64,000 bases of DNA from Perlucidibaca sp. (GTDB lineage Bacteria; Pseudomonadota; Gammaproteobacteria; Pseudomonadales; Moraxellaceae): assembly GCA_023265995.1 (NCBI GenBank), contig JAHFSA010000003.1:124001-188000 (forward strand), in the 5' to 3' direction. Of the stretch, positions 32,200-43,713 are shown piece by piece. The position numbers and the translations under genes were made by a program. Position 1 is the stretch's first letter, and every line of letters begins with the position of its first letter. The notes under the pieces are model-generated. The model did no database searches and was not told the origin of the DNA. It worked only from the letters and a program-made list of their open reading frames with translations.

Positions 32200-34116
32200 A
32201 TGAGCACGACACAAGAAAATTCTCCTCAGCGCGAAACCATGGGCTTCCAGGCCGAGGTCTCCAAGCTGCTGCATCTGATGATCCATTCGCTCTACAGCAA
32301 CCCCGAGATCTTCCTGCGCGAGCTGGTGTCCAATGCCTCCGACGCCGCCGACAAGCTGCGCTTCGAGGCACTGTCGCAGCCCGAGCTGCTGGCCGACGAC
32401 CCCGAGCTCGGCATCTGGCTGGATGTCGACAGCGACGCCGGCACCATCACCCTGCGTGACAACGGCATCGGCATGAGCCGCGACGAGGTCGTGCACAACC
32501 TCGGCACCATCGCCCGCTCCGGCACCGCCGAGTTCCTCGGCAGCCTCAGCGGCGACGAGAAGAAGGATAGCCAGCTCATCGGCCAGTTCGGCGTCGGCTT
32601 CTATTCCGCCTTCGTCGTCGCTGACCGTGTCACGCTGGAAAGCCGCCGCGCCGGGCTGAGCGCCGGCGAGGGTGTGCGCTGGGAGTCGGAAGGCACCGGC
32701 GAATTCACCGTCGAGGCCGCCGAGCTGGCGCAGCGCGGCACCCGCATCACCCTGCATCTGCGCGACAGCGCCCGCGAGTTCGCCGACGCCTGGCGCCTGC
32801 GCGGCATCATCAACAAGTACGCCGAGCACATCGCGCTGCCGGTGCACCTGCGCCAGCCGGCGGAAGACAAGGAGGGCGCTGCCGAGGCCGGTGCCTACGA
32901 GGTCATCAACCAGGCCAGGGCGCTCTGGACCTGCCCGCGCAGCGAGATCAAGGATGACGAGTACCAGGCCTTCTACAAGCACATCGCCCACGACTTCGAG
33001 GATGCGCTGAGCTGGAGCCACAACAAGGTCGAGGGCAAGCTCGAATACACCTCGCTGCTCTATGTGCCGGGACGCGCGCCGTTCGACCTCTATCAGCGCG
33101 ATGGCGTGCGCGGCCTCAAGCTCTATGTGCAGCGCGTGTTCATCCGCGATGACGCCGAGCAGTTCCTGCCGCTCTACCTGCGCTTCATCAAGGGCGTGGT
33201 CGACTCCAACGACCTGCCGCTGAATGTCTCGCGCGAGCTGCTGCAGTCGTCCGAGATCATCGACAGCATGAAGTCGGCGCTGACCCGGCGCAGCCTCGAC
33301 ATGCTCGCCAAGCTGGCGGATGACGGCGAGGCCTATGCGAAGTTCTGGGCCGCCTTCGGCCAGGTGCTGAAGGAAGGTGTGGGCGAGGACTTTGCCAACA
33401 AGGACAAGGTGGCCAAACTGCTGCGCTTCGCCTCCAGCAGCCACGGCGAGGGTGCCGCCACGGTGGCGCTGGCCGATTATGTGGCGCGCTTCAGGGAAGG
33501 CCAGGACACCATCTATTACCTGACCGCCGACAACTACACCACGGCGCGCCAGAGCCCTCATCTGGAGATCTTCCGCAAGAAGGGCGTCGAGGTGCTGCTG
33601 CTCACCGACCGCATCGACGAGTGGATGATGAGCCATCTCACCGAGTTCGACGGCAGGAAGCTGCAGCACATCGGCAAGGGTGAGGTCGATCTCGCGAAAA
33701 TCGCGGTCGCCGAGGGCGAGAGTGCCGAGCCAGAGCTCAGCGAGGCGCAGTCGCAGCAGGCCGAGACCGTGGTCGCGCGTCTGCAGCAGGTGCTCGGCGA
33801 GCGCGTGAAGTCGGTGCGCATCACCAACCGCCTCAGCGAGTCGCCGACCTGCCTGGTGCTGGATGCCTTCGATCCCGGCTTCCAGATGCGTCAGCTCATG
33901 GAGGCGGCCGGCCAGAAGCTGCCGGAGGTAAAGCCGATACTCGAGATCAATCCGACGCACCGTCTGATCGACCGTCTCGCCAGCGAAAGCGACGAGGCCC
34001 GCTTCGCCGATCTTGCACAGGTTTTGCTCGATCAGGCCGCGCTGGCCGAGGGAGCCCAGCTGGAGGATCCGGCGGCTTATGTGCAGCGCGTGCAGCGACT
34101 GTTGCAGGGTCTTTGA
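32200..34116 (+). CDS. htpG: Molecular chaperone HtpG (Hsp90)
   Basis: Cytoplasmic ATP-dependent Hsp90, 638 residues, standard bacterial length. The N-terminal ATPase domain shows [31 protein letters not shown], and [15 protein letters not shown]. The middle domain contains [10 protein letters not shown] and [11 protein letters not shown]. The C-terminal dimerisation domain ends at [11 protein letters not shown] sigma32-like promoter lies upstream. gpsA follows on the same strand but has its own promoter. Confidence 0.98.
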
Positions 34117-42333: not shown

Positions 42334-42424
42334 GGAGAAGTGGCAGAGCGGTTGAATGCACCAGACTCGAAATCTGGCATACGGCTAGCCCGTATCGAGG
42401 GTTCGAATCCCTCCTTCTCCTCCA
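42334..42424 (+). tRNA. tRNA-Ser(CGA)
   Basis: A 91-base tRNA with a long variable arm (CATACGGCTAGCCCGTATCG). The acceptor GGAGAAG pairs with CTTCTCC, and the anticodon loop CTCGAAA gives CGA. The discriminator is U73, whereas bacterial serine tRNAs normally have G73. CCA is encoded. Confidence 0.95.
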
Positions 42425-42427
42425 AAC

Positions 42428-42468
42428 GCAAATAAAAAGCCCCGCCTAGTGCGGGGCTTTTTATTTGC
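42428..42468. terminator. Terminator after tRNA-Ser
   Basis: GCAAATAAAAAGCCCCGC and GCGGGGCTTTTTATTTGC are perfect 18-base arms around CTAGT. Confidence 0.93.
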
Positions 42469-42473
42469 ATTTT

Positions 42474-42609
42474 CAGGTGCAGGGCGGGTGGACGAACCCT
42501 CTGGTTCGACAACACGGCGCAGCCGTGTTGAACGCTGCCCATCGGGCAGCGGCCCCGAAGGGGTGAGGCCGCTTGCGGCCGAATAATCCCTCCTCACCAG
42601 AAGCACCTG
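42474..42609. repeat. Run of five adjacent hairpins inside an outer inverted repeat
   Basis: CAGGTGC (42474-42480) and GCACCTG (42603-42609) enclose five stem-loops in a row: CGAACC/GGTTCG (42493-42508), CAACACGGC/GCCGTGTTG (42510-42530), CGCTGCCC/GGGCAGCG (42533-42551), CCCC/GGGG (42553-42563) and GGCCGC/GCGGCC (42567-42580). Gaps between successive stems are one to three bases. It lies between the tRNA-Ser terminator and the end of the antiporter gene, and no coding fits. Confidence 0.6.
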
Positions 42610-42624: not shown

Positions 42625-43713
42625 TCAGACCCCCAGTGCGGCCAGCATGAGGAAGGTGCTGAACAGCACGAAATGCGTCATGCCTTCTATGACGTTGGTC
42701 TCGCCATCATTCAGGTTGATGGACGCTGCCAGCAGGGTCAGCAGCACCATGGCCGTCTGCACCGGCGTCAATGCCATTTCTATCGGCTGGCCCTGCAGCA
42801 GGGCTATGCCTTCAATGATGGGCACAGTCAGGATGACCGTGGACAGCGACGCGCCCAGCGCGATGTTGACCACCGACTGCATGCGGTTGTTCAGCGCCGC
42901 CCGCACCGCCGTGACGATCTCGGGGCTGGCGGAGAGCAGGGCCACCAGCATGGCCGCGACCATGGCAGGCACGCCGGTGCCGGCCAGACCCGCATCGAGC
43001 ATCTTGGCCATGACCTCGGCGAGGAGGCCGATCAGCACGAGACCGGAGACCAGCAGCACGACATGTCGTGTCACCGGAATCGGCGCGCCATCGTGGCCTT
43101 CTTCATGGCTGTCGTGGGCGGGGCCGTAGGCGTAGCTGAAGAAGTAGCTGTGCCGGGTGGTCTGCATGTGCAGGAACATGGCGTAGAGCACGACCATGAT
43201 GGCCACGGTGAAAATCGAATAGAGCTGCCAGCGGCCGTGCGGAATGAACTCCGGGATGATCATGGAAACGCCGACGGCGGTGAGGATCATCACCACATAG
43301 CTGTTGCCCGAGTCGACGTTGTAGGCCTGCTCGCCATGCTTGAGGCCGCCGAGGATCGCGGCCAGGCCGAGTATGCCGTTCATGTCGAGCATGATCGCCG
43401 AGTAGATGGTGTCGCGGGCGAGGGCGGGTGAGCTGGTATGCGCCAGCATCATGACCAGGATGACGACCTCGACCAGCACGGCGCTGATGGTCAGCAACAT
43501 GGTGCCGTAGGGCTCGCCGAAGCGTATGGCGAGCAGCTCGGCATGGTGAGCCACGCGCAGCGAAGTCAGCAGGATGGCGCCGATCAGCACGCCGGCCGCG
43601 AGCAGGGAGACGGCCTGGCCGGCGGCCAGCAGGCTGTGTTCCAGAGGGTAGGCGCAGGCCGCGACCAGCGCCCCCAGCAAGAGGAATTTCTCTTCCTTCA
43701 GCACTGATCTCAT
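42625..43713 (-). CDS. CaCA-family Ca2+/H+ (cation/proton) antiporter, ChaA-like
   Basis: An inner-membrane antiporter of 362 residues with about eleven helices in two homologous halves. HHAELLAIRFGEPYGTMLLTISAVLVEV is the first alpha repeat and the family GEP(Y/L)G motif. ALLSASPEIVTAVRAALNNRMQSVVNIALGASLSTV is the second. An acidic, His-rich cytoplasmic loop (HDSHEEGHDG) separates them. ChaA homologues export calcium, sodium or potassium in exchange for protons; the ion is not determined here. Confidence 0.88.
   Translation of the reverse strand: MRSVLKEEKFLLLGALVAACAYPLEHSLLAAGQAVSLLAAGVLIGAILLTSLRVAHHAELLAIRFGEPYGTMLLTISAVLVEVVILVMMLAHTSSPALARDTIYSAIMLDMNGILGLAAILGGLKHGEQAYNVDSGNSYVVMILTAVGVSMIIPEFIPHGRWQLYSIFTVAIMVVLYAMFLHMQTTRHSYFFSYAYGPAHDSHEEGHDGAPIPVTRHVVLLVSGLVLIGLLAEVMAKMLDAGLAGTGVPAMVAAMLVALLSASPEIVTAVRAALNNRMQSVVNIALGASLSTVILTVPIIEGIALLQGQPIEMALTPVQTAMVLLTLLAASINLNDGETNVIEGMTHFVLFSTFLMLAALGV

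Follow-up and report, generated by a model that had tools for sequence, protein, structure and literature searches.

A tRNA-Ser-linked hairpin array of Perlucidibaca sp. belongs to a widespread non-coding family and is probably a small mobile element

The window analysed here is a stretch of 64,000 nucleotides from contig JAHFSA010000003.1 of Perlucidibaca sp. It contains an intact tRNA-Ser gene, which is followed on the same strand by a terminator-like palindrome and a cluster of short hairpins and, in convergent orientation, by a gene of the Na+/Ca2+ exchanger family, the stop codon of which lies 15 bp from the element. The features of the locus are as follows, with positions in the window and the basis of each assignment in brackets.

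42334..42424, + strand: intact tRNA-Ser (anticodon CGA) with encoded CCA (ARAGORN; Rfam RF00005)
42428..42468, + strand: perfect 18-bp palindrome whose stem contains runs of A and T, a likely intrinsic terminator of the tRNA (sequence, fold)
42474..42480, + strand: 5' arm of the outer stem, CAGGTGC, a probable remnant of an inverted tRNA acceptor end (fold; tRNA origin from relatives)
42493..42508, + strand: hairpin A, formed by the inverted T-arm strand CGAACC and the direct T-arm strand GGTTCG (fold; layout shared by relatives)
42503..42509, + strand: left flank of the array, GGTTCGA, T-stem and T-loop up to A58 (reading; TTCGA in 131 of 155 copies, a figure inflated by the search model as set out below)
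42510..42585, + strand: hairpin array of 76 bp, the putative mobile unit (RF02902 and R2 matches)
Parts of the array, + strand: hp1 42510-42530, AA, hp2 42533-42551, hp3 42552-42564, GA, hp4 42567-42580, GAATA
42586..42599, + strand: right flank ATCCCTCCTCACCA, remainder of a tRNA-Ser-like 3' end (reading; tail comparison)
42603..42609, + strand: 3' arm of the outer stem, GCACCTG (sequence, fold)
42625..43713, - strand: convergent neighbour, Na+/Ca2+ exchanger family (PF01699, E 2.6e-21)

The array begins with CAACACGG and ends with GGCCGAATA, and no coding capacity was identified in it. Five hairpins, hairpin A and hp1 to hp4, lie within the outer repeat, and neighbouring hairpins are separated by 0 to 2 bases. 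The original prediction, a series of five hairpins enclosed by an outer stem next to tRNA-Ser, agrees with these coordinates and with the fold; only its spacing of one to three bases has to be corrected. It had also held that the preceding terminator does not account for the cluster, and the palindrome at 42428-42468 with its 18-bp stem is a separate structure; a simple consensus terminator scan listed nothing at this position. In the minimum-energy RNA fold, all five hairpins and the outer stem are formed on both strands, with -76.1 kcal/mol (z -3.87) for the plus strand and -78.7 kcal/mol (z -4.01) for the minus strand, and none of 200 shuffles was as good in either case. With a simple hairpin definition, the cluster at 42474-42609 is the sole chain of five adjacent hairpins in the window. 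The longest chain in 20 block-shuffled windows comprised two hairpins once, three hairpins 17 times, and four hairpins twice, but never five.

The array matches the Rfam family RF02902 (AaHKsRNA22) at 42501-42597 on the plus strand with 42.9 bits, above the curated cut-off of 39.8. Within the order, RF02902 matches were found in 21 of 390 genomes, 13 of them above the cut-off, and in none of 14 control genomes. Two further models were built. Model R1 included the tRNA T-loop flanks and worked mainly as a sequence profile; at E 0.01 it matched 59 of the 369 class genomes. Model R2 is restricted to the array and was built from 19 sequences, excluding the window and the tRNA flanks. At E 0.001, it detects arrays in 86 of the 369 class genomes and in 46 of 398 genomes of a phylum sample. 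The window copy is matched at 42511-42579 with 38.3 bits (E 5.8e-8 genome-wide) and shows the hp1-hp4 pairing, an hp3 similar to CCCCGAAGGGG, and the subsequent GARTM motif, as its 3' end reads GAATA. A second R2 match in the window (33693-33742, 18.3 bits) lies inside a 638-codon open frame and was taken as chance. Thus, by comparison of sequences, the element of the window is a member of a widespread non-coding hairpin-array family.

The phylum sample also contains an array-rich family outside the class (f246), to which 28 of the 46 genomes with R2 matches belong. In the loci read from this family (e.g. G853, G867), several arrays are in tandem and many have no tRNA nearby.

The pairing within the array is conserved among relatives. 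In the R2 alignment, 17 of 26 pairs are changed on both sides, and the covariation score of 0.344 compares with 0.108 when partners are shuffled and with 0.047-0.090 when they are slid; the alignment is poorer in hp4, where 66% of the cells are paired. In an alignment-free comparison, in which arms were swapped between arrays and own arms pair at 1.00 by construction, pairing amounted to 0.715 for hp1, 0.578 for hp2, and 0.495 for hp4. This comparison took in 81 of 91 arrays, as 10 without a 5-bp hp1 at the start were dropped, and the values for hp2 and hp4 are based on 74 of the 81. Covariation and arm swap together indicate that the structure of the array is conserved, and the strong compensatory changes across relatives support that half of the original prediction which considered a structured RNA; the covariation that it had called for was found. 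Its alternative, that the cluster consists of chance GC-rich palindromes, can appeal to a GC content of 72% in the R2 match. As homologs occur in other genomes of the class, their pairs covary, and the chain of five was never reproduced in shuffled windows, this explanation was rejected and its probability is negligible.

Relatives also reveal how the array is linked to tRNA genes. From the loci fetched, 165 matches were obtained, which were merged into 155 distinct copies and do not comprise every R1 match. In the copies that were read, the array usually lies beside a tRNA gene on the same strand and interrupts the T-loop of an incomplete tRNA duplicate, with the arrangement GGTTCGA^[array]^ATCC...CCA. 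The general plan consists of an intact tRNA, a terminator, an inverted stretch from the 3' half of the tRNA, a short linker, GGTTCGA, the array, and ATCC...CCA; in one copy (L043), the terminator is present a second time. When the flanks are joined by eye, they yield an uninterrupted T-arm, which places the array in the T-loop, directly after A58. The flanks of the window copy joined without the array read GGTTCGA^ATCCCTCC, which corresponds to an empty target GA^ATCC, and such an empty site was not seen at the window locus itself. The inverted part is often degenerate: among the 131 copies of the TTCGA type, 35 have an intact complement of the T-loop, 36 have a GAGAA-like word, and 60 have neither. 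The five hairpins predicted as one unit are of two origins. Four are part of the array, and the fifth, together with the outer stem, is derived from the copied inverted tRNA end.

A tRNA gene on the same strand is found within 700 bp in 109 of the 155 copies and at most 100 nt upstream in 65, whereas a tRNA on the opposite strand within 700 bp was found in none of the 155. TTCGA is present at the edge of the array in 131 of 155 copies, a figure that is inflated because R1 contained the T-loop flanks and 18 of the copies come from contigs found by a pattern starting with GTTCGA. With the flank-free model R2, a same-strand tRNA was found within 300 bp in 19 of the best 30 class loci, including the window, and it is located upstream in 18 of these 19 and downstream in one. 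Among the further loci from the phylum search, a tRNA is within 300 bp in 7 of 27. In four loci (L047, L072, L125, L141), the array interrupts a nearly complete tRNA gene, and in two others (L038, L040) it interrupts the apparent D-arm of a 5' half of tRNA-Ser. A fold-back tRNA tail without an array (exact GGATTCGAACC, 3-25 bases, GGTTCGAATCC; a pattern that represents one T-arm type) was found in none of 345 genomes. The orientation of the arrays relative to the tRNA also bears on whether the element might be a 3' untranslated-region structure that protects or ends the mRNA of the convergent exchanger gene. The short distance to the stop codon and the equally good fold of the minus strand would be in accordance with such a role. 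As the orientation of the arrays follows the tRNA and the sequence after the tRNA differs among congeners, this role is very improbable.

The tails of the partial tRNA copies are specific for the adjacent tRNA. For 65 copies, the direct tail scored 13.7 against its own tRNA, 7.3 against other tRNAs, and 5.9 against shuffled sequences, and a weaker effect was found for the inverted tail (7.4, 5.6, and 5.5, respectively). The arrays behave differently. Their identities were compared for 62 of the 155 copies; each combination of genome and tRNA type was represented once, and copies without a tRNA or on named contigs were excluded. Arrays from the same genome at different tRNAs had a mean identity of 0.756 (36 pairs) compared to 0.673 after shuffling of labels, a value that was not reached in any of 2000 shuffles. 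When the tRNA was the same and the genomes differed, the mean identity was slightly raised, at 0.683 compared to 0.672, and 35 of 1000 shuffles were as high. In genome G628, for example, the arrays at tRNA-Arg(CCG) and tRNA-Arg(ACG) are 95% identical. This comparison shows at the level of sequence that array and tail have different histories. Because an array is more similar to those at different tRNAs within its own genome than to those at the same tRNA elsewhere, the array appears to be the moving part; gene conversion or base composition could be a partial cause of the likeness within genomes.

It might also be considered that a tRNA-targeting tyrosine recombinase integrates the entire unit of about 170-190 bp as a cassette, with the tail as att site, as in the tandem repeats of RtT. 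Units of this size ending in all or part of a tRNA tail are present in L016, L038, and L252 as well as in E. coli, and the available part of a comparison of two Paratyphi A strains describes a copy-number difference of one 175-bp unit of rtT RNA (PMC2658671). This mechanism would hardly explain why arrays of one genome are alike at different tRNAs despite different tails, nor why the bare array occurs in sites unrelated to tRNA and in stand-alone tandem, and it is quite unlikely.

Several types of such sites were found. Palindromes of the type CGTCATTCC..GGGA^ATCCAG are interrupted by arrays in six loci (L227-L231, L233). In genome G723, four filled copies were read and 21 empty ones were found by pattern, and in G569 there were two filled and five empty copies; the reading covered four of the eight R2 matches in G723 and three of the eight in G569. 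The exact CGTCATTCC pattern is absent from the array-bearing genomes G714 and G679. Other repeats, which we take to be ERIC-like, are interrupted at a single site, TTTCAGGA^AGGCGGCAAG, in L238, L239, and L243, and 31 empty sites of this kind are present in G968 and 13 in G1071. Filled and empty copies differ in one base just right of the junction, and the exact pattern is absent from genome G1110. Three bare arrays, the middle one shortened, are arranged head to tail in L245. In genome G538, six near-identical arrays (L110-L115) are located in a dispersed repeat with a length of roughly 330 bp; both long terminal inverted repeats, similar to CTAGCCCGGATATTGCACCAAGG, are present in five of these six copies. 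In L041 (1200-1898), an array lies in frame inside an open frame that is presumably hsdS-like, in the linker before MKDSGVDWIGEMPTHW; the Pfam score of this frame for Methylase_S, 21.3 bits, is just below the cut-off of 22. The array of L192 is located beside AAGTGCGGT words, presumably uptake-signal words. In L208 and L246, an array is located in an incomplete copy of the 5' part of a nucleotidyl-transferase gene, and this copy is followed by the intact gene start. Judged by eye, L204 and L199 have an array at the same point of this gene start, and the gene in all four loci is presumably rmlA-like. The copies in tRNA T-loops and in other repeats, together with empty versions in the same genome, support the second half of the original prediction, namely a hairpin-based mobile element at a tRNA locus.

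At the window locus, the tRNA origin of the flanks rests on the relatives because the element's own tail scores are poor to moderate. With a percentile of 0.35, the inverted tail fits its own tRNA no better than other tRNAs, whereas a moderate percentile of 0.80 is reached by the direct tail. The CTCACC tail has a score of 11 with tRNA-Ser(GGA) tails elsewhere and of 9 with the neighbouring tRNA-Ser(CGA), and it also fits a tRNA-like 3' end at C11 of the same genome. From the better fit to tRNA-Ser(GGA), a weak case can be made that the unit may have arrived from another tRNA-Ser. The search for further copies that had been proposed yielded the relatives described above but no second DNA copy in the own genome, where the 152-bp stretch finds only itself and 11 other matches of 14-32 bases with E >= 0.35. 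One further, diverged array is present at G000:C3:48091-48159 (L251, 28.4 bits). This second array is of the GGA-loop type, and there is no tRNA in the 1.2 kb read around it. DNA-similarity searches with the window element gave no match in six congeners and no match at E 1e-3 among plasmids and phages. In five congeners, no element is present in the 330 bases after tRNA-Ser(CGA), and this stretch differs among congeners; one of them (G001, L151) has in the place of the element a sequence that we take to resemble the start of an integrase gene.

The layout of the locus closely resembles that of the RtT RNA. In the rttR region of E. coli (tyrT/tyrV), the same parts follow in the same order, namely tRNA, inverted tail, GGTTCGA, hairpins, and a full tRNA tail. 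Like RtT, the window element is located downstream of a tRNA on the same strand and includes a copy of its tail; this tail is degenerate and nearer to tRNA-Ser(GGA), and the single copy of the window contrasts with the three tandem units of rttR in E. coli K-12. The RtT model (RF00391) matches 42468-42602 with 30.7 bits, below its cut-off of 45, and E. coli rttR itself gives no match with R2. For these two reasons, the window copy belongs to RF02902 and the array superfamily and is RtT-like in layout only. Membership of the E. coli repeats therefore rests on the layout and on three bridging loci (L200, L201, L206), which are matched by R2 and by RF00391 above its cut-off; L206 passes both Rfam cut-offs, RF00391 and RF02902.

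The shared layout raises the question of whether the element is an RtT-type small RNA with a cellular role, transcribed by read-through from the tRNA promoter and released when the tRNA is processed, with hairpins maintained for RNA function and spread by ordinary duplication. Conserved pairing and the location of arrays on the same strand as the tRNA would be expected for such an RNA. In Actinobacillus pleuropneumoniae, RtT RNAs were seen on Northern blots, and one of these RNAs is present across Pasteurellaceae, according to the available part of the report (PMC4986893). The same part describes two of these RNAs as located upstream of tRNA genes, unlike the element of the window, which is downstream. 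Further points against this explanation are the score below the RtT cut-off, the absence of the element in five congeners, and the terminator-like palindrome between tRNA and element. A promoter scan found no promoter, but this has little weight since the scan missed any tRNA promoter as well. Moreover, arrays are also found without a tRNA in ERIC-like and palindromic repeats, in the hsdS-like frame, and in the MITE-like repeat. An RtT-type RNA with ordinary duplication is thus an unlikely, though not a far-fetched, explanation for the window element.

AaHKsRNA22, the family to which the window array is assigned on the same strand, is Aggregatibacter sRNA 22, and the Rfam output mentions neither mobility nor linkage to tRNA. 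Locus L194 reaches 80.5 bits with RF02902 and 49 bits with R2, and no tRNA is present in the 3-kb loci L194 and L192. No paper naming AaHKsRNA22 was found in the open literature searched.

Loops of 3-12 nt containing GGA occur in 26 of 76 hp1, 20 of 78 hp4, and 3 of 73 hp2 hairpins. All 20 arrays with GGA in hp4 also have it in hp1, so that both loops carry the motif in 20 of 81 arrays from 15 genomes (e.g. L065, L066, L074, L143), and we take these paired loops to resemble dual CsrA/RsmA sites. An RNA sponge that binds CsrA/RsmA might be proposed on this basis. The motif is missing from most arrays, the loops of the window copy are GCA, ATC, GAA, and CTTG, and no Rfam hit to RNAs of the CsrB/RsmZ type was obtained, so that this function is scarcely plausible for the window element.

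Among known mobile DNA, Rickettsia palindromic elements and bacterial MITEs are described, in the parts of the sources available, as small, hairpin-forming, and dispersed, and sometimes in frame in genes (PMC2229807, PMC10969869). The array shares the small size, hairpins, dispersal, and an occasional in-frame position. It differs by its four separate hairpins and by its preference for tRNA T-loops and existing palindromes, and by reading it has no terminal inverted repeats and its flanks join without a target-site duplication, including the TA duplication. REPs of the GTAG and CGTC types are described in the accessible part of PMC3733652 as short dispersed palindromes, some of which are nested inside other palindromes. 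In contrast to REPs, which are single palindromes of 20-40 bp, the CGTCATTCC palindrome is here the target and the array the insert; these target palindromes may be CGTC REPs. As judged from titles cited in PMC3696847, Sharp as well as Collins, Leach and a co-author described interruptions within ERIC repeats in 1997. In G968 and G1071, ERIC-like repeats likewise contain family arrays at one site, and the interruptions of 1997 may be identical with this array. The window copy itself is not in such a repeat, as by reading its flanks are tRNA-like and no ERIC consensus surrounds the array.

Taken together, the element is best explained as a 76-bp non-coding mobile hairpin array that occupies the T-loop position in a decayed and folded-back duplicate of the 3' end of a tRNA-Ser, behind an intact tRNA-Ser gene. 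We assign a probability of roughly 0.7 to this interpretation, which draws by sequence comparison on family membership, pairing, tRNA linkage, tRNA-specific tails, uncoupled histories, and empty and filled sites. For the transposition itself, the order of events, the enzyme, and transcription at this locus, the following course can be envisaged. The array would be a small dependent, non-autonomous mobile element that is copied or moved into ...GA^A(TCC)... sites, mostly in the loop or on the 3' side of a hairpin such as a tRNA T-arm, an ERIC-like repeat, or a CGTCATTCC palindrome. At genes that are indispensable for the host, surviving copies would be those in partial duplicates next to the intact gene. 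If the unit of tRNA tail, terminator, inverted tail, and array were duplicated several times, this could lead to the tandem arrays at other tRNA genes. Read-through of the tRNA terminator would produce an RNA that folds into a closed multi-branched structure like the RtT RNA of E. coli. As a candidate enzyme, a single-strand-acting transposase of the IS200/RAYT kind might act in trans, a guess for which the odds are at best clearly unfavourable.

With a degree of belief that stays somewhat short of even, a broader proposal may be made. RtT RNA, AaHKsRNA22, the ERIC-type interruptions, and the T-loop insertions could represent one superfamily of about 50-90 bp by model matches, the members of which would move as folded single strands and home to hairpin loops at GA^A. 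The tRNA T-arms would be a main landing site in the class, and one branch with paired GGA loops might possibly act as a CsrA sponge. No paper joining RtT, AaHKsRNA22, and ERIC interruptions was found in the open literature searched. If the proposal is true, the tandem repeats at the tyrosine tRNA genes of E. coli, an orphan sRNA family, and the interruptions of ERIC repeats would have a common origin, and the arrays would constitute a further class of mobile DNA, one with hairpin loops as its targets. It would further suggest that mobile insertions are among the small RNAs annotated so far, and both the enzyme that moves such elements and the function of their RNA would become testable.
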